Of a stretch of DNA of 64,000 bases, positions 2,065 through 29,589 are shown piece after piece; position 1 is the stretch's first letter; each line of letters opens with the position of its first letter. The translations under genes were made by a program, and so were the position numbers. The stretch comes from Levilactobacillus tongjiangensis (lineage in GTDB: Bacteria; Bacillota; Bacilli; Lactobacillales; Lactobacillaceae). The notes under the pieces were generated by a model. The model saw only the letters and a list, made by a program, of their open reading frames with translations, ran no database searches and was not told where the DNA came from. The stretch covers positions 62,001 to 126,000 of the forward strand of contig NZ_RHNY01000001.1 of assembly GCF_003946345.1 (NCBI RefSeq), in the 5' to 3' direction.

Positions 2065-2805
2065 TTACTGCTGTGGTGCTAAGTAAATGGCTACGTCACC
2101 AAAGTTGACGCCCTCCCCAAATTCTCGGTCGGTTTGGGTGGCGACCCCAATGTGCCAGTTCTTAAACGTGGCCAACTTGGCGGCAGAGTAGCCAGCAGTA
2201 ATTAAGGCCTCACGGTAACTCTGGATAGTTGGGTGTGCCACTTGGTTGTAGAGGCGAATGTAGATTTGTCCTGCTGGTACTCTGGGAGAGCGTTCCCCGT
2301 CGGAGGGGTTGATGGCGGCACTGGCCTGGCTTCTCAGAGCGTCGTCGTTCACGGTTCCAGGGAAAAGACTCCGGACAGCATTGTCGAATCGTTGTCCCTG
2401 TTCCTGGCCAGGATCGACGGACGGCTTATTGGTGGGGTTCGGTTTAACGGTGGCACCACCAGGGATTAAATATCCGCGCCAGATCCAGCCGCCGTGGCGC
2501 CCATCAAAACTGTTCACGTGGTAGTAAATAGCGGCTTTGTGGGTGCGTTTGTCATAAAGTTTTTCATGAGCGTTTGTGAGCCACGTGATGTCCTCCGTAT
2601 TGCGGCCATAACGGACGCCTAAATGCTTAGAGTAGCGGGAGCCGCGGTGAGTATGGTAGAGGTGTTGGTGCATAGAATGGCGCCAAACCAAGCGGACTGA
2701 GTTGGCGCGAGCGGCAGAGTATTCTGATGCCTGAACACTAGTAGGGACCAGAAATGTGGTGGTTAGGGTGGTACCGATGAGCAATAAGATGGCTGATGGT
2801 TTCAT
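2065..2805 (-). CDS. Secreted SH3-like surface protein (paralog of 33021-33839)
   Basis: A 246-residue exported protein: signal peptide residues 1-26 (cleavage near VQAS). An N-terminal module at about 27-115 contains RLVWRHSMHQH, SKHLGVRYG, LTNAHEKLYDK and IYYHV...GWIWRGYL. Such W/Y-rich modules ending in WIWRGY are typical of lactobacillus SH3-like wall-binding proteins. Residues 115-155 are a Pro/Asn linker, and 155-246 form a C-terminal module (LFPGTVNDD, KNWHIGVATQ, GEGVNFGDVAIYL). The same architecture occurs in the 33021 gene. No LPxTG motif or extra membrane segment is seen. The start is supported by aaaggagg 8 bases upstream. The function is unknown; extracellular wall attachment is likely. 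Confidence 0.7.
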   Translation of the reverse strand: MKPSAILLLIGTTLTTTFLVPTSVQASEYSAARANSVRLVWRHSMHQHLYHTHRGSRYSKHLGVRYGRNTEDITWLTNAHEKLYDKRTHKAAIYYHVNSFDGRHGGWIWRGYLIPGGATVKPNPTNKPSVDPGQEQGQRFDNAVRSLFPGTVNDDALRSQASAAINPSDGERSPRVPAGQIYIRLYNQVAHPTIQSYREALITAGYSAAKLATFKNWHIGVATQTDREFGEGVNFGDVAIYLAPQQ

Positions 2806-3060
2806 GAAGGAACCTCCTTTTGCTCTTGATATTACGACTAATTCGCCAGATTACTAGGTTAAATTCGGTCGGATAGTCTCAATATAAATACTGATATAAC
2901 AGTATTTTTAAGGGGCTGTAGTTAGAAAATTAAGCGGGCGGAAGAAGTCTGGAGAGTCATATTAAATTGGTAAATATTCTGTGTGTAAAGGTATATTCGG
3001 GGCAATAAATATTTCTATTATTTAATTCATCAACGATTCCATGGATTTAGAATTAAATAA

Positions 3061-3103
3061 AAAGTGGTGGTATTGCCAGTTTGAAGGCAATGCCACCACT
3101 TTC
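3061..3103 (-). terminator. Terminator downstream of the ABC exporter operon
   Basis: The near-perfect stem aaagtggtgg-attgcc / ggcaat-ccaccacttt has an A run on its left side, giving a U run for minus-strand transcripts. Repeat B1 lies between the permease stop (3348) and this terminator. Confidence 0.8.
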
Positions 3104-3160
3104 ATTTATGATTCACGAATAGGTTAAATTCACTAAAAATTTCACATGGATTACAGTGTA

Positions 3161-3343
3161 GCCGCAGGTAGTCAGGGGACGGGACCGCAGTGTCGGCGGT
3201 GTTGGTCGGGGTATTTTCCCGGCCTACAGCGCGGGTCGAGCTTGGAGATACGGGCTTTCGTAGCTTCAAGTCGAGGTGGAACCCCGGGTTGGGGGGTGGA
3301 ACCGACCCCACAGCGGGTCCCGTCCCCTGACTGCCGTAGGCGG
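3161..3343 (+). repeat. Family B long-hairpin intergenic repeat, copy B1
   Basis: A GC-rich 183-bp unit whose ends pair perfectly over 15 bp (3171-3185, gtcaggggacgggac, with 3317-3331). The core has gtcgagcttggaga...tagcttcaagtcgag and a gtgtaggcc-like inner stem. It begins with the shared tagccg(c/g)aggt and ends with gccgtaggcgg. It ends 5 bp from the permease stop codon. Confidence 0.85.
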
Positions 3344-3347
3344 ACAA

Positions 3348-4970
3348 TTAACTCATGTGTAAATCACGTCGCCGGTAGCCCATCCAACCGATTAAAATCA
3401 GCACCAGAGCCAAGCTAACCATCCAGCTAAAGGTGGTCCAGTTAACGTCGTGAATTGGGACCCGCGGCATCCAGCCGGCCGGTGTCAGGTTTTTGACCCA
3501 GCCAGGAAGTTTCAAGAGACTGCCCATATAGACGCTCACGAAACCCAGAGCCAGGTACGCCCAACTCAGTGACTTCAGTCGTGGCCAGCAACCAACGAGT
3601 AACACACTCAACGCGAGAAATACCCAGATTTCAGGGAGTTGGGCAGCCGCGGCTTGCCAAAACTCTGACGCACTAATACCATCCTTAACGTGTGTCAGGC
3701 TGGCGTCACCCATGACGACAATGCCCGCTAGACCGCCAATGTAGGCCAGCGTGCTGGTAACAAAGGCGGTGCCCACGTAACTGAATAGCAGGCGAGTGCG
3801 GCTCAATGGCCGTGCATAGAGGGCTTCTAGCCAACCACGTGTCTCATCGGTGTGCAGCTTTAAAATTAACTGCATTCCGGGAATAACGGCAACGGCGGCC
3901 ATCACAACAGCCAGCAAGGCGGTAAAGCTCACTAGGATGCTGTGGTTGGCCTCGTGGACCATGGTGGCACCGAAGACCTGTTGCATAGTCGGATTGGTCT
4001 TCAGAATGTCGCCAATGGTGTTGAAGACCGTCCCATAGGCGGCACCAAAGATAATAATACCGACTAGCCACCCAATCAGCACGTTACGTTGCCGTCGCCA
4101 AATCAGGGAAATGGGACCGCGTAAGAAAACGGAGGCTTGCTTGCGGCCAGGACGGGTCGTGATGGCGCCAACACCCAGGTCCCGGTGACTATTGGCCCAG
4201 AAGGCAATGGCTAAGAGGATGAGGGCTAAGCCCAAACTCAACCAGACAGGGAGCCAGGTAGGGTTATTGTAAGGTGCTAATTTTTCTACCCAACCCAGTG
4301 GTGACCACCATGTCAGCTTAGGGTGCTGAACGTCGGTGACCATTTGAGCCAGGTAGCTCAGGCCGAACAACGTGTAAGCGAGGCCGGTGGCACTTGAAGA
4401 ATGGTCGGCGACTTGGGCAGTTAGGAGTCCCAGCATGCCGAACAACAGACCCGCGGCTGCCAATCCGATACCAATCAGCCAATTACCTTGGATAGTGGCG
4501 CCGGGCATGTTTGCGGCGGTCAGTCCGGCACCGTAAAGGAGTCCCAGTAAACCGTTGACTAAGACAAGCTCAATCGCTGCGGCTGAAAGTGGGGCTAACG
4601 TTCCCACGGCGTGTGCCCGCACGAGCTCAGTAATACCTAAATCTTCTTCAGCCCGCGTTGCGTGTACACTCAGGGCCAGGTTCATGACAACCTGAATCAA
4701 GCCCATGAACAGAAGCATTTCATTGGCAAAGATTTCGGCCGTGGTGACTTTGCCGCTAAAGGAAAAGGCGCCAAACATGGCAACGATACCGGGGCTGGCC
4801 AGGGTCCCTTTGATAGCGTTGATTTCCGTGGGTGTGCCGTAAATGCCTTCAAATTTCCAGGCAACGCTGGCCATTAGAGCGGCCAGAATAAGAATCCACA
4901 TGAGAATGCGAAACCGGTCCCGGCGTAAGTTTAACCGAACCAGTTGGCCAGTACGTCCATAACGAGACAT
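3348..4970 (-). CDS. ABC-2 type exporter permease (polyketide/multidrug exporter family)
   Basis: A 540-residue integral membrane protein with about twelve hydrophobic segments in two similar halves. This is the layout of fused ABC-2 permeases annotated as exporters of polyketide antibiotics. It pairs with the ATPase encoded 5 bp upstream. I place the start at ATG 4970 (MSRYGRTGQLVRLN), where aaaggagtg precedes it; upstream in-frame ATGs lie inside the ATPase gene. It probably exports a hydrophobic toxin or drug, substrate unknown. It is transcribed after the ATPase and is likely controlled by the divergent TetR protein. Confidence 0.85.
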   Translation of the reverse strand: MSRYGRTGQLVRLNLRRDRFRILMWILILAALMASVAWKFEGIYGTPTEINAIKGTLASPGIVAMFGAFSFSGKVTTAEIFANEMLLFMGLIQVVMNLALSVHATRAEEDLGITELVRAHAVGTLAPLSAAAIELVLVNGLLGLLYGAGLTAANMPGATIQGNWLIGIGLAAAGLLFGMLGLLTAQVADHSSSATGLAYTLFGLSYLAQMVTDVQHPKLTWWSPLGWVEKLAPYNNPTWLPVWLSLGLALILLAIAFWANSHRDLGVGAITTRPGRKQASVFLRGPISLIWRRQRNVLIGWLVGIIIFGAAYGTVFNTIGDILKTNPTMQQVFGATMVHEANHSILVSFTALLAVVMAAVAVIPGMQLILKLHTDETRGWLEALYARPLSRTRLLFSYVGTAFVTSTLAYIGGLAGIVVMGDASLTHVKDGISASEFWQAAAAQLPEIWVFLALSVLLVGCWPRLKSLSWAYLALGFVSVYMGSLLKLPGWVKNLTPAGWMPRVPIHDVNWTTFSWMVSLALVLILIGWMGYRRRDLHMS

Positions 4971-4975
4971 CTTGG

Positions 4976-5872
4976 TCACTCCTTTCCCGTGTAGTAGTGC
5001 ATGAAGAGGTCTTCCAGCGTGGGTGGTGTGCTTTGCAGAGCCACGATGTCGTGTTGCGCTAGCGTGGCCATAACGGCTTTCAGTTGGGCATCTTCCACCG
5101 CAAATTGCCATTCTTGAGGTTGGTGGCCGGCAGTCACACCGTGGACGCCGGCTAACGTAGTGACGTCAAAGTCATCGCCCAACGTCACGGTGATCATGGT
5201 TCGCGTCAGGTGGCGCATCTCGGCTAAACTTCCGGTCTCGATAATCTGGCCTTCACGGATGATGCCGATCCGGTCACACATGCGTTCAACCTCTGAGAGA
5301 ATGTGGCTGGATAAGAGAACCGCTTTGCCGCGGGCCTTTAAGTCCAGAACAGCTTCTTGGAAGATGCGTTCGTTCAGCGGATCGAGTCCGGACGTTGGTT
5401 CGTCAAAGATGTAGAAATCTGCGTCCTGGGAAAAGGCCGCAATGAGTGCCACTTTTTGGCGATTGCCCTTTGAATAAGTCCGGGCCTTTTTGGTGGGATC
5501 GAGACCGAAGCGTTTAATGAGTTCATCGGTTTTTTCGGTGTGGTCCGTCCCGTTCATCTTGAGCAGGAGGTCGATGATTTCGCCACCAGTCAGATTCGGC
5601 CACAGGTAAACGTCGCCGGGAACGTAGGCCAGTCGCTGATGAATCTTGACGCTGTCGTGCCAAACGTTTTGACCGAAGATACTAGCACTTCCGCCGCTGG
5701 CCCGGATGATGCCCAAGAGAACGCGAATCGTGGTGGATTTACCCGCACCATTAGGGCCAATGAAGCCGAAGACCTCGCCAGGGTGGACGTCAAATGTGAT
5801 ATCTTTTAGGGCCTGAAAATGCCCGAATTTTTTTTGTAGATGGGTGATTTGAAGTACAGGATTAGTTGTCAT
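4976..5872 (-). CDS. ABC exporter ATP-binding protein
   Basis: A 298-residue cytosolic ATPase that powers the 540-residue permease. Walker A is GPNGAGKST (residues about 41-49), the signature is a variant, YSKGNRQKVAL (LSGGQ replaced by YSKGN), Walker B is FYIFDEPTSGLDP, and the switch His lies in LLSSHILSEVE. The C-terminal 70 residues form the extension usual in DrrA/CcmA-type exporters. The start at 5872 (MTTNPVLQITHL) is chosen from the gaggaggggatt ribosome site. The gene is divergent from tetR with a shared control region. Confidence 0.9.
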   Translation of the reverse strand: MTTNPVLQITHLQKKFGHFQALKDITFDVHPGEVFGFIGPNGAGKSTTIRVLLGIIRASGGSASIFGQNVWHDSVKIHQRLAYVPGDVYLWPNLTGGEIIDLLLKMNGTDHTEKTDELIKRFGLDPTKKARTYSKGNRQKVALIAAFSQDADFYIFDEPTSGLDPLNERIFQEAVLDLKARGKAVLLSSHILSEVERMCDRIGIIREGQIIETGSLAEMRHLTRTMITVTLGDDFDVTTLAGVHGVTAGHQPQEWQFAVEDAQLKAVMATLAQHDIVALQSTPPTLEDLFMHYYTGKE

Positions 5873-5944
5873 AAAAAATCCCCTCCTCGCAGTTTTTAAA
5901 TCGCTATCATCGTAATCCCGGGGATACCTAAAGTCAATGAAAAA

Positions 5945-5971
5945 GTGAACTATTTTAACAAAATAGTTCAC
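5945..5971. promoter_or_regulatory. Palindromic operator between the ABC exporter and tetR
   Basis: A perfect 12+3+12 palindrome (gtgaactatttt - aac - aaaatagttcac) lies between the divergent exporter and TetR genes. This is the usual size and place for a TetR-family operator, so autoregulation and repression of the exporter are inferred. A likely tetR -10 box (tatgat, 6000-6005, with ttaaaa 17 bases upstream) lies just to the right. Confidence 0.75.
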
Positions 5972-6045
5972 TAAAATTAAAAACGCTGGTGGAATGCGTT
6001 ATGATAAAATGAACGAAGAGAGTTTAGCGAAGGTGGCGACGGAAT

Positions 6046-6681
6046 ATGGCGACAAATCAGGAACGAAAGCAACGTCAACGTCAGAGTATTCTGGCCGCGG
6101 GGATGAAACTATTTATGCGCGATGGCTATAAACCAACTCACATCAAGGCGGTAGCAGCCGAAGCGGGCGTTTCTCAAGTCACGTTGTACAAGTACTTTGA
6201 TAGTAAACTAGAACTCGGACATCAGGTCGTTATTGACTTGATCAATCAGGGGTATGCGAGCTTTCGGGAAACGGTCGACAATCAGCAGATGTCCTTTACC
6301 GAAGTCGTTAAGTGGATGATGACGACCAAGGTCGCGATGAGTGATGGTCTGAACCCGGATTTTTACAGCTTTGTGATTGATGAAATGCAGGGGAATTTAG
6401 GCAGTCACGCGGTTAAGGACGCCTACGAGGCCGGCAAAAAGGAATTTTGGGATGCCATGGTTGCCCGTGGTCGCGCCGCTGGGAGCATTAACCCGCAGAT
6501 TTCCAATGAAGCCTTAATGCTATTTCTAGATATGTATGTCGATTTCTTTAGTCGCGCTAAAGTAGGACCGGACGAGTATCAACACTTGGTTGATCAGTTG
6601 ATGCATCTCTTTTTCTATGGACTCGTTGGGGGTCCTGTACCACCCAAACCAGACCAGTCATCCAAGGAGGATCAAGCATGA
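6046..6681 (+). CDS. TetR/AcrR family transcriptional regulator
   Basis: A 211-residue regulator. Residues 8-55 form the TetR helix-turn-helix (QSILAAGMKLFMRDGY...IKAVAAEAGVSQVTLYKYFDSK). The rest is a helical ligand-binding domain with no recognisable specificity. The gene is divergent from the ABC exporter, with a perfect palindrome between them, so it probably represses the exporter and itself until a toxic ligand is bound. The stop overlaps the start of the HD-domain gene (ATGA), so the two are co-transcribed. Confidence 0.88.
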   Translation: MATNQERKQRQRQSILAAGMKLFMRDGYKPTHIKAVAAEAGVSQVTLYKYFDSKLELGHQVVIDLINQGYASFRETVDNQQMSFTEVVKWMMTTKVAMSDGLNPDFYSFVIDEMQGNLGSHAVKDAYEAGKKEFWDAMVARGRAAGSINPQISNEALMLFLDMYVDFFSRAKVGPDEYQHLVDQLMHLFFYGLVGGPVPPKPDQSSKEDQA

Positions 6682-7337
6682 CAGCAGCAACAGTATTAGC
6701 AGCAGTTCGTGAATTTTCAAAATCTAAAATGGGGGACGACGAGACGGGCCACGGGTTCGATCACATTCAACGCGTGGTGGGATTAGCCGACCGGTTAATT
6801 CAGTCGTATCCTGAGGCTGACCGCGTGGAAACGGTGACCGCCGCTTACCTCCACGATGTCATTGACGAAAAATTGGTGACGGATACCGCAGCAGCGAGTG
6901 CTGAAGTGACGCAATTTTTAACGGCACAAGGGTTTTCCACCACGCAAATCACCACGATTTTTCTGATTATGGATAACATGTCCTATCATAAAACCTTGGA
7001 TGGGACCGCTAAGCCATTGCCCTTGGAAGGCCAAATCGTGCAAGATGCTGATCGTTTAGATGCAATTGGAGCCATCGGTATTTCGCGAGCCATCTACTTT
7101 GGTGGTCACTTTGGTGAAAAGATTTACGACCCAGCGGTGAAGCCTAGAACGGCCATGACTCACGCCGAATATCGCAATTTAGATAACGAAACCATCATCA
7201 ATCATTTTTATGAAAAGCTCCTCACATTGAAGGATTTGATGAATACGGCGGCGGCAAAGCAGTTAGCTGAGCACCGCCAGCAAGTTATGTTAGATTTTCT
7301 AGCTGAATACAAAGCAGAATGGAATGCGGAAGCTTAG
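6678..7337 (+). CDS. HD-domain phosphohydrolase (YpgQ/YedJ-like)
   Basis: A 219-residue cytosolic protein with the metal-binding HD signature: His25/His29 (HGFDH), His59-Asp60 (LHDVIDE) and a later Asp in QDADRLDAIGAIG. Proteins of this kind include small nucleotide pyrophosphatases and phosphohydrolases, but the substrate cannot be told from sequence. It is translationally coupled to tetR by a 4-base overlap. A wrapping C-terminal helix (EHRQQVMLDFLAEYKAEW) is typical of the subfamily. Confidence 0.85.
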   Translation: MTAATVLAAVREFSKSKMGDDETGHGFDHIQRVVGLADRLIQSYPEADRVETVTAAYLHDVIDEKLVTDTAAASAEVTQFLTAQGFSTTQITTIFLIMDNMSYHKTLDGTAKPLPLEGQIVQDADRLDAIGAIGISRAIYFGGHFGEKIYDPAVKPRTAMTHAEYRNLDNETIINHFYEKLLTLKDLMNTAAAKQLAEHRQQVMLDFLAEYKAEWNAEA

Positions 7338-7446
7338 GCGACCGTGTTTTTTATTTTGAAACTGGATTAAATGAAATTAACCCATGCATTTTGGTAAAAA
7401 TGTGCGTATGATTGGTAGTAATGCTAATTTGAGAGAAGAGATTAAA

Positions 7447-8850
7447 ATGCAAACAACGACTCAACCGGAGAAGGTGCCGCGGGGGAACCTGATTGCCATC
7501 TTTGCGATAGCACTAATGGCCTTCCTGGGGATTCTGGTAGAAACATCAATGAACGTGGCATTCCCGGCCCTAATGAAACAGATGCATGTGTCCCTGAACA
7601 CCGTGCAGTGGATCACCACGGGGTATTTACTAATGGTGGCGTTACTGATGATTACCTCGGCATTCTTAAAGCAACGTTTTACGAATAAGCAATTATTTGT
7701 GACCGCCGCTCTGGCGTTTATTTTAGGCGATTTAATTTGTGCGCTCGCAACTAATTTTCCTATTTTGTTGATTGGCCGCTTGATCCAAGCGGGGTGTGCT
7801 GGTTTGGCGATTCCCCTGATGTTTAACATCGTGGTTGAAAGTGTCCCGCGGTCCCGGCTGGGATTTTACATGGGAATGGCTGGTTTGATCTTGATGATTG
7901 CACCAGCAAGTGGGCCAACGTTTGGTGGCCTGATGGTTTACTTGGCCAACTGGCGGTTGATCTTTTGGTCAACGATGCCAGTGGAGATGATTCTCTTATT
8001 ACTGGGGATGGGGGCTATCAAGCAATACGCACCTACGCAGAAAATTCGGTTCAACTGGGGCCAATTTGTCTTATTAGCCATAGCGTTTGTGAGCTTTACA
8101 CTGGGTGTTAACAGTTTGTCATCAGCTGGTTTGGTGAGTTGGCAGTTTTTAGGCGGCATCTTACTGGCTGTGGTGGCACTTCTTGGATACATCTGGATTT
8201 CTAAACGCAGTGATCGGCAGCTGTTGAAGTTGGAGATCTTCAAGAATCCGGTCTTCACGTACAGTTTCTTTGCCTACGTGATTCTGCAATTTTGTAATAT
8301 TGGGATTAACTTTGCCCTGCCTAACTATGCACAAATCGTGGTGGGCGCTACGTCACTGATTGGGGGCATGATGCTCCTACCAGGAAGTCTGATTACGGCG
8401 ATTCTGCAACCTTGGTTCGGCCACCTACTGGACGAGCACGGGGCCCGGTTACCAATTTTACTGGGGAGTAGTCTATTCCTGATTGCCGCGTTGATGTTTA
8501 CCTTATTTGGTCAGGGACTCAGTGTGATTATGATTGCCGTTCTCTATATTATCTTCAGTATTGGCCGGTCGATGGCCTTCAGTAACACGCTGACGAATGG
8601 TTTAAAGGAAGTCGACATGGGCCAACGGGCAGATGCCAACGCCATTTACAACACCGGGCAGCAGTTTGCCGGATCACTGGGGACCACGATTCTGGCGGCA
8701 TTGATGTCGTCGGTTAAGGTATCGGGCATGTCCTACGCGCATGAAACGGCAATTGGGAGCCAACTGGCGTTTGGTCTGATCTTTATCCTCAGTGTCGTTA
8801 ACTTTGGCTTTTACTTTATTGTTTTCCGTTATCAACGGACGGATAAGTAG
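7447..8850 (+). CDS. MFS drug:H+ antiporter, DHA2 (14-TM) family
   Basis: A 467-residue transporter with about 14 membrane helices. Conserved DHA2 features are NTVQWITTGYLL after helix 1, GRLIQAGCAGLAIPL in helix 4, and an antiporter motif C region (GLILMIAPASGPTFGG) in helix 5. It likely expels drugs or organic cations using the proton gradient. I use ATG 7447 (MQTTTQPEKVPRG) behind gagagaagag rather than the upstream in-frame ATGs at 7384 and 7411. It is separated from the HD gene by 110 bp and followed by a terminator. A truncated relative lies at 21493-22335. Confidence 0.88.
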   Translation: MQTTTQPEKVPRGNLIAIFAIALMAFLGILVETSMNVAFPALMKQMHVSLNTVQWITTGYLLMVALLMITSAFLKQRFTNKQLFVTAALAFILGDLICALATNFPILLIGRLIQAGCAGLAIPLMFNIVVESVPRSRLGFYMGMAGLILMIAPASGPTFGGLMVYLANWRLIFWSTMPVEMILLLLGMGAIKQYAPTQKIRFNWGQFVLLAIAFVSFTLGVNSLSSAGLVSWQFLGGILLAVVALLGYIWISKRSDRQLLKLEIFKNPVFTYSFFAYVILQFCNIGINFALPNYAQIVVGATSLIGGMMLLPGSLITAILQPWFGHLLDEHGARLPILLGSSLFLIAALMFTLFGQGLSVIMIAVLYIIFSIGRSMAFSNTLTNGLKEVDMGQRADANAIYNTGQQFAGSLGTTILAALMSSVKVSGMSYAHETAIGSQLAFGLIFILSVVNFGFYFIVFRYQRTDK

Positions 8851-22315: not shown

Positions 22316-22500
22316 GGCATTTTCCAGGCCAGCAAGACCGCTCTTTGGCTTGTCCCGTCCTTTCCACCGCGTTCCAGTCCAAATGTGGCGAACGGTAAGG
22401 TGACAATTTCCCGCTATATCTGACTAAACCCTAACACCCAATCCTTGCTGTATCAGGTATAGTGGGTATTTCGGTGCTTTCAACCTTTAGTTTGCGAACT
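22315..22500 (-). repeat. Element C, copy C2 (inverted, abutting the MFS pseudogene)
   Basis: The minus strand from 22500 repeats the left part of C1: a terminal repeat (aactaaaggttgaaag), acccactatacctgatacagc, accttaccgttcgcc and ttggactggaacg. Similarity to C1 fades after about 110 bp and is replaced by family-B-like sequence (gggacaagccaaagagcgg). Only one terminal repeat is seen, so the far end is lost or merged with the gene remnant. Confidence 0.7.
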
Positions 22501-22668
22501 AAACTGGTTTTGAAGTAATGGTGGCTATGGCACGACAATTACGCATTTAAAGTAATACAATTTCAGTTAAACGAGATTTTAGCTACCAAGATAATCAGCC
22601 CCCACTCCTGACCGCCGGAGTGCACACTAATCCAAGTTCATTAGAATGTATTAAAAAATCAACTAAAC

Positions 22669-22713
22669 AAAAAGTCTACTTAGAATTCGTCATCATTCTA
22701 AGTAGACTTTTTG
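22669..22713 (-). terminator. GreA-paralog terminator
   Basis: A perfect stem, aaaaagtctacttagaa / ttctaagtagacttttt, 16 bp beyond the stop of the minus-strand gre gene; usable in both directions. Confidence 0.88.
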
Positions 22714-22728
22714 ACTTGTATACTGTGT

Positions 22729-23217
22729 TTACGCTGTGGGGGCGGTGAGGCTGACCGTGAGAATGCGAACGTCATAGCTGGCGTTGGGTGCCTGAATGGT
22801 GACCGTGTCGCCTGGTTGGTGGCCCAATAACGCCTTGCCTAGCGGAGACACACGGGTAACTTTGCCCGCCTCTAAATCGGCCTCCTGGGTGCCGACTAGC
22901 TGGTAGGTGGCTTGGTCCGCATCATCCAGGAAGGTGACGGTGACCCACTTGCCGAGTTCGACCACGTTGTTGGTGGAAGGGTCCACGACTTTGGCATACT
23001 GTAGTTGCTTATTGAAAAAACGTAGCTGGCTTTCTAGGTGACGAAGGTCTCGCTTTGCCGCTGAGTATTCGGCGTTTTCTGAAAGGTCCCCGTGAGCTCG
23101 CGCTTCCGCTAAAATTGCAATTTTTTCTGGTCGGTCGGCTTCCAGCGCAGCGATTTTCGCCTGTAACTCCTGATAGCCAGCGGCTGTGATGGGGTTGAAG
23201 TCCCGTGAATCTGCCAT
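22729..23217 (-). CDS. GreA/GreB-family transcript cleavage factor
   Basis: A 162-residue factor that binds RNA polymerase and stimulates cleavage of backtracked transcripts. Residues about 8-77 form the N-terminal coiled coil with the acidic tip region LSENAEYSAAKRDL. Residues 80-160 form the FKBP-like C-terminal domain (GKWVTVTFLDDADQATYQLVG, SPLGKALLGHQPGDTV). It is solitary and somewhat divergent (AEARAHGDLSENAEY), so it may be a second Gre protein beside a housekeeping GreA elsewhere. ATG 23217 is chosen over a TTG three bases upstream because it follows tggagtgattt. Confidence 0.87.
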   Translation of the reverse strand: MADSRDFNPITAAGYQELQAKIAALEADRPEKIAILAEARAHGDLSENAEYSAAKRDLRHLESQLRFFNKQLQYAKVVDPSTNNVVELGKWVTVTFLDDADQATYQLVGTQEADLEAGKVTRVSPLGKALLGHQPGDTVTIQAPNASYDVRILTVSLTAPTA

Positions 23218-23294
23218 CAAATCACTCCATCCATTTTAAGATTTAGGTCTAGTTTACAGCAATTTGGTTACGAAAGGAAAAGGAGGCGACTGGC

Positions 23295-23693
23295 ATGCAC
23301 TTTTCTGGCCGGTATTGGGTACAACAAGCGAGCTGTGGTTTAGTGGTGATTGGTTTCTTGCTTTTGTTAGGTCACTGGGATTATGCCACGGGCCAGTTAC
23401 TCACGCATTTTTCGGTGCTGGATGGCTATCTGATGGCGAGCTGGGTGTGCTTTCCGTGGGCTAAGTGGGTAGTTTTAGAAGATACCCGGCACGTGCAGGC
23501 CCCTATCATTCATCGACACCAACGAGAGCAGCCAGTCTCAGTCTATGAAAAGATGCAACAACCACGGGGACCCGTTGCCGCCTCCAAGCAGACGCTACGG
23601 TGGTACTGGCGCGGCTTGCTGGACTTTCTACTAGCCATCCTGGCCCCCGTAATTTTAGGAGGATTTATCGCTTATTTAGTTGGTCACAATTGA
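23295..23693 (+). CDS. Small membrane protein of unknown function
   Basis: A 132-residue protein with an excellent ribosome site (aggaggcgactggc). Helices are predicted at about 12-30 and 45-60 and near the C-terminus (LLDFLLAILAPVILGGFIAYLV); the middle is basic and hydrophilic (HRHQREQPVSVYEKMQQ). I recognise no family. It is divergent from the gre gene with only 70 bp between them. Confidence 0.6.
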   Translation: MHFSGRYWVQQASCGLVVIGFLLLLGHWDYATGQLLTHFSVLDGYLMASWVCFPWAKWVVLEDTRHVQAPIIHRHQREQPVSVYEKMQQPRGPVAASKQTLRWYWRGLLDFLLAILAPVILGGFIAYLVGHN

Positions 23694-24222
23694 ATTGCGC
23701 TGTTTTTCCCTACCTTAACGTTAGATAATTGACGTTTTCGCTACTTAGGAACTGATTAGCGGGGAACATGTTAAAGTAGTGACAGTTGGAAGGAGTCAGT
23801 TTTACGGCAACTGATTTTGCAGGTCAATCGGTTAAAGTATATGTGTTTGACAGTGGCTAACCGTTGACGCTAGTAATTCCATGAATCTAATCCAAAGGTT
23901 GAACTGGTAGTCTATCTAGTGGGCAATTAACGAAGTTAGTAAAGTAACGCGTTACCAATTGGCTGAAGAGTAAGTGGTGGTTATTGGAGAACCCGAGGGG
24001 ATTAGACGTGTTAGGTTAGAGCTTGGGGGAGTGCTAATTTGACAGAATAGAAGTATATAATCCACTTAAGAAGAGGCTGCCCAGGGTAGCTTCTTTTTTT
24101 GGTCGCAGAAATCTAACTGATTCTGCATATTTCGTGATAATAACGATTGCAAACAACCAGCTTTCAGGTTACATTAATGGGTGATAGGTATTACAACGGT
24201 TTAGTTAAGAGGGTGGCATAAA
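23694..24222. other. 530-bp gap upstream of the LytTR system
   Basis: No complete gene. Codons at about 23803-23860 read TATDFAGQSVKVYVFDSG then stop, without a start codon, and may be a gene remnant. A terminator-like hairpin lies at 24068-24101. No double-glycine pheromone precursor gene could be found here or downstream of the kinases. Confidence 0.5.
24068..24101 (+). terminator. Terminator-like hairpin before the LytTR operon
   Basis: The stem aagaagaggctgccc / gggtagcttctt (imperfect) is followed by a run of seven T. No plus-strand gene lies immediately upstream. Confidence 0.65.
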
Positions 24223-24978
24223 ATGCTAGCGGTTTATCTTTGCGAGGATAATCCAGAACAATTGAAGCATTACACCGATGTTGTTCAGCGGTATATCATG
24301 ATTAATGACTACGACATGCAGGTCCGGTTGGCAACGCCCAGTCCTCAAGAACTATTGGCTAATTTGACGGCCAACCCGCCGGAGTACGCGCTATTTTTCC
24401 TGGATATTGAATTTCCTGCGGAGGATACCACGGGCTTGGAAACGGCGATTACGATTCGGCAGCGCTTAGGCTTTGCGGAAATCGTGTTTGTGACGACGCA
24501 TTCAGAAATGGCGCTGCTCACATTTGAACGCAAAGTTGAGCCCATGGACTTCATCGTGAAGGATTTAGGGCGGGCTCAGATTGACCAAAAATTGCGGGAA
24601 AATATCGACTACGGGTATGAACGCTACACAAATTACTTAGGAAATACGGAAAATTTATTTAGCTACACAATTGGTGGTCGTCAGTTCAGTATGCCGATGG
24701 GCGACGTTTACTTCGTTGCCACTTCTGAGATGGCTCATAAGGTTACGGTGCACGCTGCTAATCAGTTGGTGGAGTTCCCTGGATTTTTGAAGGATATTGC
24801 CGACGACTATCCAGAACTCTACCGTACGGATAAGAGCTTTTTGGTTAACTTGGACAACGTTAGCGGACTAGACACCACCAATCGGCGGCTGATTTTTCCC
24901 AATGGGGACGAGACGGATGTGGCGACACGGCGATTTCATGAGGTTAAAACGTTGGTTCAGAAGCATTTAAAGGCCTGA
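24223..24978 (+). CDS. LytTR-family response regulator (AgrA/PlnC-like)
   Basis: A 251-residue cytosolic regulator. The receiver domain (about 1-130) has the acidic pair Glu8-Asp9 (CEDN), phosphoacceptor Asp61 (FFLDIEF), the Thr in VFVTTH and the conserved Lys in FIVKDL, so it should be phosphorylatable. Residues about 145-251 are a LytTR DNA-binding domain (MPMGDVYFVATS, YRTDKSFLVNLDNV, RRLIFPNGDE). Such proteins normally control bacteriocin or quorum genes with HPK10 kinases. It is the first gene of an operon with the two kinases that follow (12 bp and 4 bp spacing). Target genes are unknown. Confidence 0.92.
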   Translation: MLAVYLCEDNPEQLKHYTDVVQRYIMINDYDMQVRLATPSPQELLANLTANPPEYALFFLDIEFPAEDTTGLETAITIRQRLGFAEIVFVTTHSEMALLTFERKVEPMDFIVKDLGRAQIDQKLRENIDYGYERYTNYLGNTENLFSYTIGGRQFSMPMGDVYFVATSEMAHKVTVHAANQLVEFPGFLKDIADDYPELYRTDKSFLVNLDNVSGLDTTNRRLIFPNGDETDVATRRFHEVKTLVQKHLKA

Positions 24979-24990
24979 GAGGGTGACACG

Positions 24991-26307
24991 ATGCACATCT
25001 TTGATACACACTTTTGGATAAATTTTGTGTTGGCCATGACTATGCAGTGGTTTTGGACGCTGTGGATTGGGGTCATTCGTCCACGTAACTGGAAATTACC
25101 ACTGAAATGGGTGGGGTGGGCGTTGATTCCGGCCGTCATTGGGACCTCCTGGTCGTTGGCGATTCCCCCCGTCTCCGCTTTACTTTACTTAAATCATCAT
25201 CGACCGAAGATGTCACTGATATTTGTTAATGCGACGATTGTGATTTATCTGGTGGTCGTGTTAGTTAATGATGTGGTTCGTGCAGTAACCATTGAATTAT
25301 TTGGTTTTGTGACCAGTCAGACGGCCCCGTTGATTGCTGGCCGACTGGTTTTTCAGGTCATCATCTACACGCTCTGTTCGTTGGCGGTTTCGGGGATGCG
25401 GATTCAACCCGGGAACCTGGAGGAATTGGCGTTTAGTCGCAAGGAACAGTGGACGGTCATGGCGTTGCTAGCGAGCATGAGTGTCTTGGCACAGTTGTCG
25501 ACGGTAATCATTCACCGGCTGGCAATTACCCACGCGATGATGACCTTTGCGCTGAGTATTGAACTCATCATGATTCTGTTGATCAGCGCGAGTCTATTCT
25601 TCTTTTTACAGAGTTTCTTTTACCGGCAACGCGTTAAGTCGGGCTATCAGGAGTTACTATTGCGGTCGCGTTATGACCGGCGAATCTCTGATCAGGTCCG
25701 GGCTATTCGTCAGTTTAAACAACAGTACCAAAAGCAGATGCTGCGGTTGGGTGATTACTTGGATGCGGAAGACTATGATGGGCTAACGGCCTACTTTCAA
25801 ACGTTGGACTCACGCTGGCATGCGACCAGTCACGTGACTGATCTGGAAGAGGATGGGTTACAACGACTGAGTGATCCACCGTTAAAGAGTTTGTTGTTTC
25901 AAAAAATTCTGGCGGCTCAGGCTAAGGGCCGTGATTTACGCTTGGAGATTCCCGATGAGGTTCGAACCTTTCCCATAGATAGTCTCCTGTTAATTCGTAT
26001 CGTGGGAATTTTGCTGGATAATGCGTTGGAATCGGCGCCTGTTGCGGGTCAACGAGACATTTACTTTGCGATTCTGACGTATCCCGGGTCTATCGAAATT
26101 TCCGTGGCCAACCCCGTTTCACAGGACGAACCACCGCAGATCAATCGGTTCTTGACGACTGGATACACGACGAAGGGCCACGGCCACGGCCAAGGATTGA
26201 AAACTGTCCAAGAAATTGTCATGCAGACCGACAATGCGTCCCTGCAGATTGCGTTGAAGCGCGGGATGCTGTACTTTACGCTGATTCTAACCAAGGAAGG
26301 CGGGTGA
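24991..26307 (+). CDS. HPK10-type sensor kinase lacking the phosphoacceptor His
   Basis: A 438-residue membrane protein. About six helices fill residues 1-215, then a cytosolic region. The dimerisation/phosphoacceptor segment reads FKQQYQKQMLRLGDYL with Gln244 where the family (and the next gene) has His. The ATPase domain is intact: N-box RIVGILLDNALESA with Asn344 and G-box GHGHGQGL at 396-403. It can therefore be expected to bind ATP but not to autophosphorylate on this His. It lies between the regulator and the complementary kinase in one operon. Confidence 0.9.
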   Translation: MHIFDTHFWINFVLAMTMQWFWTLWIGVIRPRNWKLPLKWVGWALIPAVIGTSWSLAIPPVSALLYLNHHRPKMSLIFVNATIVIYLVVVLVNDVVRAVTIELFGFVTSQTAPLIAGRLVFQVIIYTLCSLAVSGMRIQPGNLEELAFSRKEQWTVMALLASMSVLAQLSTVIIHRLAITHAMMTFALSIELIMILLISASLFFFLQSFFYRQRVKSGYQELLLRSRYDRRISDQVRAIRQFKQQYQKQMLRLGDYLDAEDYDGLTAYFQTLDSRWHATSHVTDLEEDGLQRLSDPPLKSLLFQKILAAQAKGRDLRLEIPDEVRTFPIDSLLLIRIVGILLDNALESAPVAGQRDIYFAILTYPGSIEISVANPVSQDEPPQINRFLTTGYTTKGHGHGQGLKTVQEIVMQTDNASLQIALKRGMLYFTLILTKEGG

Positions 26308-26311
26308 GAAC

Positions 26312-27646
26312 GTGATTCAGGTCAGTGCGTTGAGTTTTTCACTATCAGAGTTTTCATTGGTCTTTTGGTTTGTTTACTGTCAATACTACTGGTTTCCCCA
26401 ATTACGGTTTAAAAAGAACTTTTCGTTGTACTGTGCACTGGTTGCTGCGGGTTACACGTTGATTGATTTTATTAATCCGTTTACCTTTCACAGTTCGTTG
26501 TTGGGAGCCCTTTCCGTGGTTATTATGTTGGGCGTCGAGCTGAGCTTGATTGGTTATCAACGGAAATGGGCGTACCTCCCCGCGTTTATTGAAGTTTCCA
26601 TTTTGGCGTACTTATTAATTGAATTTGTTGATATGGTAGTTATTGTGGCCACGATTTATCTGACGAACATGCGGTTTGCTACCAGTCTGTGGGGGACGCT
26701 GTCTGAAATAGCGATTGATAACATTATCTTTGTATTGATTATTATGGGCCTTTGGATGACCCGAGCTCCCATGGAAAATTTGATTGAATCCATGATCGGT
26801 CGTTCGATTGAGTACATGTTTTTGACGTTTATGGCGACTTTGGCGGTCGTGTACATTTTGTTTGAGTACTCCTTACAGATGCTCCAGCGGTCAGATCAGT
26901 ACCTGATTTTTTTAGCTGGAATTGCTGGGACACTGCTAGTGGGCCTATCTTTGAGTACCTACATGTTGATGCAGACCCACCTGCAAGAGGAACATACGCA
27001 ACTGCAACGGCAGCAACAAGCCTTTAGAGAACAGTATACGACCGAGTTGAACCGGCAAATGAGCGTGGTGAAGAAGTTTAGCCATGACTATCAGAACATG
27101 TTGTTGGGGCTGGGGGGCTACTTGGAAGATCAGGACTACGAGGGGTTCCGTCAGCTATATATCGATATTCGCTCTGGTTGGGCGACCAGTAATGCGGCCG
27201 AATTGACCATTGATGATTTGGAAAATGTGCCGGGCACTAGTCTGCGCTTTCGGCTATATCACAATTACCTGTTAGCTAGACGTGAGGGCGTTCAACTCTT
27301 CGTGAAAGTTTCAGACCCCTTGACGGCAACCGTTGCCGCGCTTAAGCAAATGGGAGCAGTGATCGATGAGCTGACACCAAAAATGCTACCAGTCATTAAA
27401 CAGGTTCCACCAGCCATGATTACGTTGGAGTTGAGTGAAACGCCACGATTGCTGCGATTACAGCTGACATTTCCCAGTCCGCCGAACGCACGAGTTGACG
27501 GCCACAACCGAATTGTCTCAGATTTAGGTGCATTAGATTTTTCTAATGCATTAGGAATGCTTCCCGAACAAGGAGCCAGCACATTACAGCTAAAATTCCA
27601 CTGGGGCCAGCTGATTGTGACCTTGCCGAAGGGTTCTGGGCAATAG
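26312..27646 (+). CDS. HPK10-type sensor protein with His but degenerate ATPase domain
   Basis: A 444-residue membrane protein with six to seven helices in residues 1-220. The phosphoacceptor segment FSHDYQNMLLGLGGYL carries His258 and aligns without gaps to the previous gene. The ATP-binding part is degenerate: the N-box aligns as QMGAVIDELTPKML with Glu353 in place of Asn, and no GxGxG box is present near the C-terminus (DLGALDFSNALGMLPEQG instead). It should not bind ATP in the normal way, but could be phosphorylated in trans by the preceding kinase. It starts 4 bp after the first kinase stop (a GTG start is possible at 26312). Confidence 0.9.
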   Translation: MIQVSALSFSLSEFSLVFWFVYCQYYWFPQLRFKKNFSLYCALVAAGYTLIDFINPFTFHSSLLGALSVVIMLGVELSLIGYQRKWAYLPAFIEVSILAYLLIEFVDMVVIVATIYLTNMRFATSLWGTLSEIAIDNIIFVLIIMGLWMTRAPMENLIESMIGRSIEYMFLTFMATLAVVYILFEYSLQMLQRSDQYLIFLAGIAGTLLVGLSLSTYMLMQTHLQEEHTQLQRQQQAFREQYTTELNRQMSVVKKFSHDYQNMLLGLGGYLEDQDYEGFRQLYIDIRSGWATSNAAELTIDDLENVPGTSLRFRLYHNYLLARREGVQLFVKVSDPLTATVAALKQMGAVIDELTPKMLPVIKQVPPAMITLELSETPRLLRLQLTFPSPPNARVDGHNRIVSDLGALDFSNALGMLPEQGASTLQLKFHWGQLIVTLPKGSGQ

Positions 27647-27723
27647 ACCGGGGCTTGGAGTATTCACAAAGTCCGGATGATGCATAGTTTATAGTTCGCT
27701 ACCATCAGTTGTAAATTATTTAC

Positions 27724-27760
27724 TGAAAACGCTTGCAATCTTGTACCCATCTGATATACT
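27724..27760 (+). promoter_or_regulatory. Promoter with an overlapping cre-like site
   Basis: A -35 ttgcaa (27733-27738), a 16-bp spacer and -10 tatact (27755-27760). The cre-like box tgaaaacgcttgca (27724-27737; one mismatch to the CcpA consensus) overlaps the -35, suggesting catabolite repression. No protein gene follows; the transcript would be the structured RNA at 27767-28044. Confidence 0.6.
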
Positions 27761-27766
27761 AAGACT

Positions 27767-28044
27767 TGTAATACCAATCAATCTGTCAGGGAAGTTGTAA
27801 AATAAAGTGATTTTATAAGTTCCCGACTTTGTGAAATAACTCTCATTTAAAAGATAAGAGTTATCTTTGCAGCACGATTAGTTTTCATTAACTGAACGTG
27901 TTTGAATTGCTCAATAACTACATATTGAGATTAATAACTGAATTCGAGTGAACAGCGTTTTCCTGACTACAAACTGTGATGATGTTGAATGCTCTAATGA
28001 TGTTAGTGGGAGTCGGAGAGTGGTTACTCCGACTTTTTTTGTGT
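27767..28044 (+). ncRNA. Candidate structured small RNA, about 280 nt
   Basis: It starts just after a good promoter and ends at a strong terminator (28011-28042, agtcggag / ctccgact plus seven T). Between them lie three more hairpins: 27785-27827 (gtcagggaa... / ...ttcccgac), 27835-27863 (ataactct / agagttat) and 27909-27928 (ctcaata / tattgag). The only short frame with any promise is a 30-codon one from about 27979 (MMLNALMMLVGVGEW...) that runs through the terminator and lacks a ribosome site. No Rfam family is recognised. Confidence 0.5.
28011..28042 (+). terminator. Terminator of the candidate small RNA
   Basis: A perfect 8-bp stem (agtcggag / ctccgact) with a run of seven T. Confidence 0.85.
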
Positions 28045-28079
28045 CTGAAATTAGTTTTCAAGTATGACTGATGTCGTGC

Positions 28080-28270
28080 TCCGCCTCCGGCTGGCAGGGC
28101 GGGTGTCTGCTGTGGGGAACGCTTGCAGCCAAAGTACAGGCTTCCGGCTCGACTTGAAGCCTCGGAAGTTCGCCGAGTTTCCAAGCTTGTCCCGTGGTGT
28201 AGACTCGGAAATTCACCGGGTTAACGCCACCGACACGGCTGCCGCCCGCCCTGCCAACCTGCGGCTACGA
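28080..28270 (+). repeat. Family B long-hairpin repeat, copy B4
   Basis: The outer arms ggctggcagggcggg and cccgccctgccaacc pair at 14 of 15 positions. The interior has cggctcgacttgaagcctcgg, gccgagtttccaagcttgtc and gttaacgccaccgacacggc as in the other B copies. Confidence 0.87.
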
Positions 28271-28460
28271 TTGTGGATAAGTTGAAATTGCTTTTTGGAA
28301 AGAGCTGGGGGAACAACAAGGTGATGGGGTAGGTTTCACTAGAAATAGTTGCAACGTACAATGATATTTTAGAATTGCCACTTATAGGATAGTTGCTCAT
28401 TGCATGTATAATCTTGGGTTACTAACAACTGAAGGTTAAGTAAACATTAGTATCTAAAAA

Positions 28461-28508
28461 GGCGCATGCCGCTAGGGGATTGAGACCCAGCGGCACGCGC
28501 CTTTTTTT
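28461..28508 (-). terminator. Terminator of the 32-residue membrane peptide gene
   Basis: The stem aaaaaggcgc-tgccgct / agcggca-gcgcctttttt is very strong. For minus-strand transcription it ends directly after the stop codon at 28507. Confidence 0.85.
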
Positions 28509-28605
28509 ACACAATATTCAGTAAATTCAAAATTCCCCAGACCAATAAGCTGGCTAGTAAAACTAATAGGATAAGGATTGCCCATTTTTGTGGCCAACGC
28601 ATCAT
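28507..28605 (-). CDS. 32-residue small membrane protein
   Basis: A minus-strand frame beginning MMRWPQKWAILILL and continuing as one hydrophobic helix to LLNIV and stop. A ggggg-rich ribosome site lies 4-7 bases before the ATGs, and the stop is fused to a strong terminator, so this is a complete compact transcription unit. One Trp/Lys-rich cytosolic end plus one helix resembles small regulatory or type I toxin-like peptides, but no family is recognised. Confidence 0.55.
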   Translation of the reverse strand: MMRWPQKWAILILLVLLASLLVWGILNLLNIV

Positions 28606-28698
28606 ATCCCCCCTAAGCCATTCAACTGACTCAAGTATACGAGATAAAGATGATTAACGGTTACAATCGTCTAAATCGTAGAAAAATTGACGATTACG

Positions 28699-29589
28699 CT
28701 AATTCGTGTGAAACGTGGCAAAATCAGCGGGTACGGGCGCCGTCACGGTGGTTAAGGGGCCATCTAGTGTCCATGGCTGAGGAAAGTCCAAACGCCAACA
28801 GTGTAGCCGTAAACGGTCCTGACTGGGTTCTGCGTAAAGGGGATCGCCAACTAGTGGATGTCTGGCGTTAGCCAAGTGGACCCGGAGTTGATGGGTCCGG
28901 CCAGTTTCTAGCCACAATTTGACTAGCGTGGCGCCGGGCTGGTGGTCGACGGCTTCGTAGTGGGTCACGGCGGGTTGAGCATGGACACCATTGACTAGGC
29001 GTTTGCGCTTGTCATTGGGATCACGACCGATGGGACCGGTAAACGTGCCCTGCCCCTGTAAAGTCCCACGAACCCAAGCCAAGTAGGTCCGCTGAACGCG
29101 TTTTTCAGCAATATTGCGTACCATCACAGGGACTACTGCGGGAGTCTTGGTCATCAAAAGAGCGCCAGTTGTTTCCTGGTCGAGGCGACTTAGAATGTAA
29201 GGACCTGGTTCGTTGGGCCCCAAGTAGGCGGCTACGTGATTCAGTGTGGTGCCACGTTCTGCTGGCTGATTGGGGTGTGTCTTACTGCCCCGTGTTTTGT
29301 TGATAACGAGCAGGTCGGCTGTTTCGTAGAGCACGCTGACGGTGGCCGCACTGTCAGGCAGCACATCTGGGAAGGGTTCCTTGAAATCAGTGGGAACAAA
29401 GGTGAGTTGGACGGTTTCACCAGCGTAAACGAGTTGATTCATGGTTCGGTAGCTGCCGTTAACTAACACACGCTGGTGAATTCGTAGGTCGTGGACGAGG
29501 TGACTAGGGAGTAACCAGGCCGTCAATAATGCTCTGAGCGGCATGGGTGCTTGTGTTGCGGGGATAGTCTGGGTATAGGTCCATTGCAT
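28699..29589 (-). CDS. RluA-family 23S rRNA/tRNA pseudouridine synthase
   Basis: A 296-residue enzyme converting uridine to pseudouridine in RNA. The catalytic Asp137 lies in ILSRLDQETTG; LLVINKTRG...HP precedes it and the KLWLETGRTHQLRVHLA motif follows, as in RluA/RluD. An S4-like N-terminal region (HQRVLVNGSYRTMNQLVYAGETV) is present. Which position is modified cannot be told. ATG 29589 follows aaaggagcgccacc. It is monocistronic on the minus strand. Confidence 0.9.
   Translation of the reverse strand: MQWTYTQTIPATQAPMPLRALLTAWLLPSHLVHDLRIHQRVLVNGSYRTMNQLVYAGETVQLTFVPTDFKEPFPDVLPDSAATVSVLYETADLLVINKTRGSKTHPNQPAERGTTLNHVAAYLGPNEPGPYILSRLDQETTGALLMTKTPAVVPVMVRNIAEKRVQRTYLAWVRGTLQGQGTFTGPIGRDPNDKRKRLVNGVHAQPAVTHYEAVDHQPGATLVKLWLETGRTHQLRVHLANARHPLVGDPLYAEPSQDRLRLHCWRLDFPQPWTLDGPLTTVTAPVPADFATFHTN

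Follow-up and report, generated by a model that had tools for sequence, protein, structure and literature searches.

The AgrC kinase and the AgrA regulator of Staphylococcus aureus are related to the two kinases and the regulator that are the subject of this work, and AgrC mutants are said, in work by Cisar et al. in 2009, to complement one another in mixed dimers. The Mycobacterium tuberculosis pair Rv0600c and Rv0601c, which is not known to be an AgrC-type receptor, reportedly places an ATP-binding half and a histidine half on neighbouring genes beside the regulator TcrA; the excerpted literature has both kinases cooperating with TcrA. In Bacillus subtilis, the soluble protein Spo0B receives phosphate from Spo0F; it has a phosphoacceptor hairpin, and its ATPase-like domain is degenerate. 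In Rhodobacter sphaeroides, the kinase domain and the phosphoacceptor domain reside on different proteins, CheA3 and CheA4, and neither autophosphorylates alone, according to the portion of PMC3591291 cited here; the same text holds that other histidine kinases could also be split and that bifunctional split kinases are predicted to allow bistable responses. Likewise, Hik36/Hik43 of Synechocystis is described as a histidine kinase split over two genes, with both products interacting with Rre6 (PMC7656254, as excerpted), and Streptococcus equinus has operons in which a single regulator is accompanied by two to four sensor kinases (PMC9638458, as excerpted).

Here we describe an operon in which two adjacent AgrC-like kinase genes, HK1 and HK2, carry complementary losses. 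It lies in a window of 64,000 nucleotides of Levilactobacillus tongjiangensis DNA, the whole stretch that was analysed, to which the positions below refer. Levilactobacillus species are food-fermentation bacteria. On the strength of sequence comparison across this genus, we consider it likely that a single obligate sensor kinase of the AgrC (HPK10) kind is divided between HK1 and HK2, and that phosphate would pass from HK1 to His258 of HK2 and then to Asp61 of the regulator.

Operon layout

The operon consists of the following parts.

24223-24978, + strand: AgrA-type response regulator (REC and LytTR), 251 amino acids, with E8, D9, D61, T91 and K113
24991-26307, + strand: HK1, 438 amino acids, membrane AgrC-like kinase with intact ATP-site motifs and Gln244 replacing the phosphoacceptor histidine
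25714-25740, + strand: degenerate H box of HK1, FKQQYQKQM, codons 242-250 (Gln244 at 25720-25722)
26005-26031, + strand: N box of HK1, GILLDNALE, codons 339-347, intact
26173-26199, + strand: G box of HK1, KGHGHGQGL, codons 395-403, intact
26312-27646, + strand: HK2, 444 amino acids, GTG start, membrane AgrC-like kinase with an intact phosphoacceptor helix (His258) and a degenerate ATPase domain
27077-27097, + strand: H box of HK2, FSHDYQN, codons 256-262, with His258 and an HDxxN phosphatase-type motif
27365-27373, + strand: degenerate N-box position of HK2, DEL, codons 352-354, with Glu353 instead of Asn

All three genes are on the + strand, with 12 bases between the regulator and HK1 and four between HK1 and HK2, so an earlier note on this DNA had the kinase coordinates and the tight operon spacing right. 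It had also reported the lesion of HK1, and re-reading the sequence gives the same result: Gln244 within FKQQYQ, with Asn344 (in LLDNA) and KGHGHGQGL intact.

Profile searches place all three proteins in the agr-like family at different distances. The regulator contains the Pfam domains Response_reg and LytTR and matches NCBIfam AgrA at 9.7e-37, under the family cut-off. Both kinases match NCBIfam AgrC (HK1 at 9.2e-32, HK2 at 3.1e-9), well under the family cut-off, and the profiles of both match the AgrC kinase module 6e52, with E=2.9e-35 for HK1 and E=1.5e-9 for HK2 (profile of residues 223-392). A Pfam search identified HATPase_c_5 in HK1 (E=3.6e-9); for HK2, even a threshold of E=1 gave no HATPase domain. 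Both kinases retain dimerisation-helix regions as well as several membrane segments. When this genome was searched with PF14501, it returned HK1, one DcuS/MalK-type kinase and one ArlS-type kinase.

Distribution and selection

We compared the operon of this genome with those of 33 further genomes of the genus. Of 35 Levilactobacillus genomes, 34 gave a match to HK1, and the one that did not is 72% complete; HK2 lies directly after HK1 in every one of the 34 loci. An AgrA-type regulator precedes HK1 in 33 loci, two of these regulators being broken; in L053, the contig starts at HK1. Leaving out the broken regulators of L037 and L045 and that of L053, which is off the contig, E8, D9, D61, T91 and K113 are invariant in the 31 readable copies. 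The statement in the earlier note that Asp61 is intact is borne out, and the regulator, which keeps its phosphorylation residues, looks built for phosphorylation. A search with HK2 gave 42 loci, including 30 long matches at 48-95% identity; 28 of these are in Levilactobacillus and two in Lactobacillus sp., with L. yonginensis (95%), L. brevis, L. hammesii and L. spicheri among them. Carriage on plasmids was considered and rejected, as a search of 72,556 plasmid records with HK2 gave no match.

Both kinase genes are under purifying selection. Whole-gene dN/dS, from 12 chosen close species pairs, is 0.022-0.049 for HK1 and 0.023-0.045 for HK2. For single domains, the ranges are 0-0.033 in the acceptor DHp of HK2, 0.012-0.060 in its pseudo-ATPase and 0.019-0.092 in the HK1 ATPase, and 0.092 is the highest value over all computable domains and pairs, with dS of the HK1 DHp saturated in three pairs and several other dS values above 1. 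These results bear on the idea that HK1 and HK2 are copies in decay, left over from a quorum-sensing system no longer in use. In its favour, three of the 34 loci (L045, L037 and L035) contain a broken gene, and AgrB (PF04647) matched in none of the 35 Levilactobacillus genomes, in a search in which no control genome gave a match over the cut-off either. However, whole-gene values of 0.02-0.05 argue against decay, as do the invariance of the functional residues and retention in 34 of 35 genomes, and we give this explanation hardly any credence; the two genes do not look decayed, in agreement with the earlier note.

Several loci show individual disturbances. In L045, a transposase-like gene (6809-7984) interrupts the regulator, and in L049 two transposon-type genes (2109-3939) sit between the regulator and HK1, the identities in both cases being judged by eye. 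The HK2 of L035 is in two frames (6509-6754 and 5434-6567), as is the regulator of L037 (7690-8337 and 7575-7943); each is possibly a strain lesion or an assembly error.

HK1 keeps the ATP site and mostly lacks the acceptor histidine

The ATP-site motifs DNA and KGxxHGxGL are kept by HK1 in all 34 loci, with G339, D343, N344, A345 and E347 of the N box and K395, G396, H399, G400, G402 and L403 of the G box invariant throughout. The acceptor site presents a different picture. Position 244 is Gln in 24 loci, Arg in five and His in five, and the residue that follows, for which HK2 has an Asp, is always one of Q, N, R, L, I or T and never Asp or Glu. HDxxN is absent from HK1 in every locus, and in the genus alignment no other histidine of its DHp region is invariant.

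The claim that HK1 lacks a phosphoacceptor histidine thus holds for 29 of the 34 loci and fails for L. spicheri, L. hammesii, L. tujiorum, strain HBUAS51381 and genome G015, which have His244. Within the 29, the ATP-site half and the acceptor half of a histidine kinase lie on separate proteins, which is what defines a split kinase. In the other five, the histidine is in a non-canonical setting (HNYQQ or HTYQK) that also lacks the Asp and Asn of HDxxN, and His at this position takes at least two changes on the tree. An HK1 homodimer may work by itself in these five species, and for them the sequences weaken the proposal of the earlier note that only a heterodimer would be active. A more far-reaching version, in which HK1 acts alone by phosphorylating itself on another residue or on the histidine where there is one, draws on the same five species; the 29 loci without His244 and the lack of an invariant DHp histidine make it very improbable.

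Although the acceptor itself is mostly gone, its surroundings (F242, Y246, Q247, Q249, M250 and L251) are invariant in the 34 loci. Across the 27 two-kinase loci, mean pairwise identity of HK1 is 81% in the acceptor helix, 74% in the membrane part and 70% in the CA domain. Because the helix is more conserved than the protein's own ATPase domain, it appears still to have a role rather than simply to be drifting; perhaps this role is dimerisation.

HK2 and HK3 keep the acceptor motif and lack the ATP site

HK2 displays the reverse pattern. The F, H, D, Y, Q and N of the H box are invariant in all 39 aligned HK2 and HK3 sequences, in an alignment that leaves out both HK2-class genes of L035 (where HK2 is in two frames), and HDYQN is present in each of the 41 readable copies. 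Both ATP-site motifs are missing from the 39 aligned sequences, and neither DNA nor GxGxGL occurs in the C-terminal part of any of them. Column 353 is occupied by R (13), Q (10), E (6), K (5), A (3), S (1) or H (1) and never by N; five sequences have an Asn one column earlier, without the DNA motif. The earlier description of HK2 therefore stands as regards His258, the missing G box and Glu353 at the ungapped N-box position, but Glu353 is not conserved, and only the loss of the Asn is. Mean pairwise identity in the 27 two-kinase loci reflects the same division: 88% in the acceptor-helix blocks of HK2 versus 60% in its pseudo-ATPase, and 78% in the N-box stretch of HK1 versus 42% in that of HK2. 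The earlier note would have been refuted by relatives with two full kinases and random decay in this strain; the comparison gave the opposite result, with the complementary losses recurring throughout the genus under purifying selection.

Monomer models made by AlphaFold2, with the genus alignments as input, reach modest confidence: the mean pLDDT is 71.1 in HK2 and 64.6 in HK1. The C-terminal part of the HK1 model matches the AgrC ATP domain 4bxi with a TM score of 0.86 by target length. That of HK2 still matches ATPase domains (4bxi at 0.71 and DesK 3ehg at 0.75), so in the models the fold seems to have been kept without the ATP site. Foldseek matches of HK2 also include Spo0B (1f51_A, rank 19, E=2.1e-4).

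Seven of the 34 loci (L034-L040) contain a third kinase gene, HK3, a duplicate of HK2 that is likewise of the acceptor type with HDYQN; ATP-site motifs are missing from the six aligned HK3s. In these loci, a single ATPase half would have two acceptor halves to serve.

Kinases outside the genus and the origin of the pair

Among 397 family genomes, HK2 has strong matches only in the 25 Levilactobacillus genomes of the sample, and the five weak matches outside the genus are intact kinases. At E up to 1e-25, HK1 matched 50 non-Levilactobacillus genomes among the same 397. A control scan of HPK10 kinases in other genera covered 30 loci, of which some were second copies and two (L137 and L141) had no kinase ORF, leaving 19 distinct kinases. 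All three boxes are intact in 19 of 19, although the search pattern that led to 10 of these includes HDYQNML, so those 10 are no test of the His; similarity to HK1 or HK2 was the basis for picking the remaining nine, which come from nine of the 50 HK1-matching genomes. With these intact outside kinases, 10 of them chosen by a His-containing pattern, and with an intact regulator, the comparison supports the split-pair reading of the earlier note.

In a quick tree of 94 rows, which omits the short N-terminal piece of the L035 HK2 and keeps the longer one, the 34 HK1s fall on one side of a branch with support of 100, and another branch, also with support of 100, groups 41 HK2/HK3 rows. HK1, HK2/HK3 and one kinase of genome G100 come together with support of 97 and a long-branch warning at the join; since the outgroup branches are long, the sister relation of HK1 and HK2 is weak. 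Of the kinases from outside the genus, that of G100 stands closest in the tree; it is a single, intact kinase, and the regulator in front of it shares 38% identity over 245 residues with the regulator described here. A duplication before the radiation of the genus, followed by complementary loss, would account for the origin of the pair; the sequences fit this history and do not prove it.

Probable RNAs flanking the operon

Two further conserved elements lie on either side of the three genes.

27758-28039 (about), + strand: probable gene for a structured non-coding RNA, immediately after HK2
23912-24099 (about), + strand: conserved stretch upstream of the regulator, probably a non-coding RNA, that contains the motif CTTGGGGGAGTGCTAA

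The downstream element has two-sided changes in 17 of 39 predicted pairs (25 aligned sequences of the 34 loci), a promoter-like site in front and a terminator at its end. In 24 of 34 loci, a search expression found a cre-like box in it. We dropped the reading of a conserved downstream ORF as a small peptide because this ORF overlaps the conserved terminator stem. An Rfam search over 22500-29000 gave four matches, all below gathering scores and none near the downstream element. Of 25 Levilactobacillus genomes sampled, 24 contain the motif CTTGGGGGAGTGCTAA of the upstream element, each as a single copy, and the 372 other family genomes have no copy. The upstream element ends in a terminator-like stem; 5 of 23 pairs show two-sided changes, and all five belong to this stem.

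A predicted phosphate route through two proteins

The simplest phosphate route, judging from the motifs that each kinase keeps, would run from ATP on HK1 to His258 of HK2 and on to Asp61. HK1 would bind ATP, and its catalytic domain is predicted to phosphorylate His258; from HK2, the phosphate would then go to the LytTR regulator, at Asp61. AgrC works as a dimer (PMC6755735, as excerpted), which makes a membrane heterodimer of HK1 and HK2 the likeliest geometry, most likely held together by the two dimerisation helices. In such a receptor, the two sensor domains might receive separate signals. HDYQN of HK2 fits the HE/DxxN/T phosphatase motif cited in the excerpted part of PMC3591291, suggesting that HK2 could also be a phosphatase.

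The same phosphate route could be followed if HK1 and HK2 were separate homodimers, with HK1 phosphorylating HK2 between dimers. HK2, with its degenerate ATPase fold, does recall Spo0B, the Foldseek match 1f51_A; however, both proteins have dimerisation-helix regions and several membrane segments, and AgrC itself is dimeric (PMC6755735, as excerpted), which speaks against separate homodimers, although the present data suit either geometry. We regard separate homodimers as unlikely, with odds that overlap those of the heterodimer because geometry alone differs between them. A more distant possibility is that HK2 is chiefly a phosphatase or an allosteric pseudokinase that is switched by ATP binding to HK1, with phosphate coming from acetyl phosphate or another kinase. 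The fit of HDYQN to the phosphatase motif of PMC3591291 (as excerpted) is consistent with this, and the excerpted text of PMC12189002 describes the partner-switching pseudo-kinase DivL and the kinase heterodimer RetS-GacS. It offers no reason for the complete acceptor motif to be frozen in one protein, HK2, and the complete ATP site in the other, HK1, and we consider it improbable.

Building on the heterodimer, we tentatively suggest a wider scheme, about which we have more doubt than belief. HK1 would be part of a genus-wide obligate heterodimeric quorum-type receptor, serving HK2 or, in seven species, HK2 and HK3 as alternative partners. The receptor could act as an AND gate or a bistable switch, since it is the acceptor half that carries the phosphatase motif, just as theory supposes for bifunctional split kinases; the conserved RNAs that flank the operon would be part of its output, like RNAIII beside agr. 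An RNAIII-like role for these RNAs is a guess by analogy.

Comparison with known systems

Split CheA is already known, and the HK1/HK2 pair is filed as a variant of the split histidine kinases. Among the listed matches of a search of open-licence literature, as excerpted, there was no split pair of two full-length membrane receptors of the HPK10 or quorum type with complementary losses. The known cases differ from the Levilactobacillus pair in several ways. In CheA3/CheA4, as far as the cited excerpt describes them, whole domains are missing, whereas HK1 and HK2 are full-length HPK10 membrane proteins with matching layouts that have lost motif residues. Hik36/Hik43 is a CheA homologue whose genes are far apart (PMC7656254, as excerpted); HK1 and HK2, in contrast, are a membrane sensor pair in one operon. 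For the multi-kinase operons of S. equinus, compared by description, the excerpted text of PMC9638458 does not mention complementary lesions. Spo0B resembles HK2 in the modelled fold, but HK2 sits in the membrane, and its gene lies next to that of the kinase proposed for it. Unlike AgrC of S. aureus, which is one complete kinase, the kinase here appears to be divided, and no AgrB was found in the 35 genomes (nor over the cut-off in the controls).

HK1/HK2 looks like a case of complementary loss after gene duplication. If this is true, the pair is a natural, genus-wide split kinase built from two full-length receptors, and it offers a way into how two receptors share one catalytic cycle, maybe while reading two signals.
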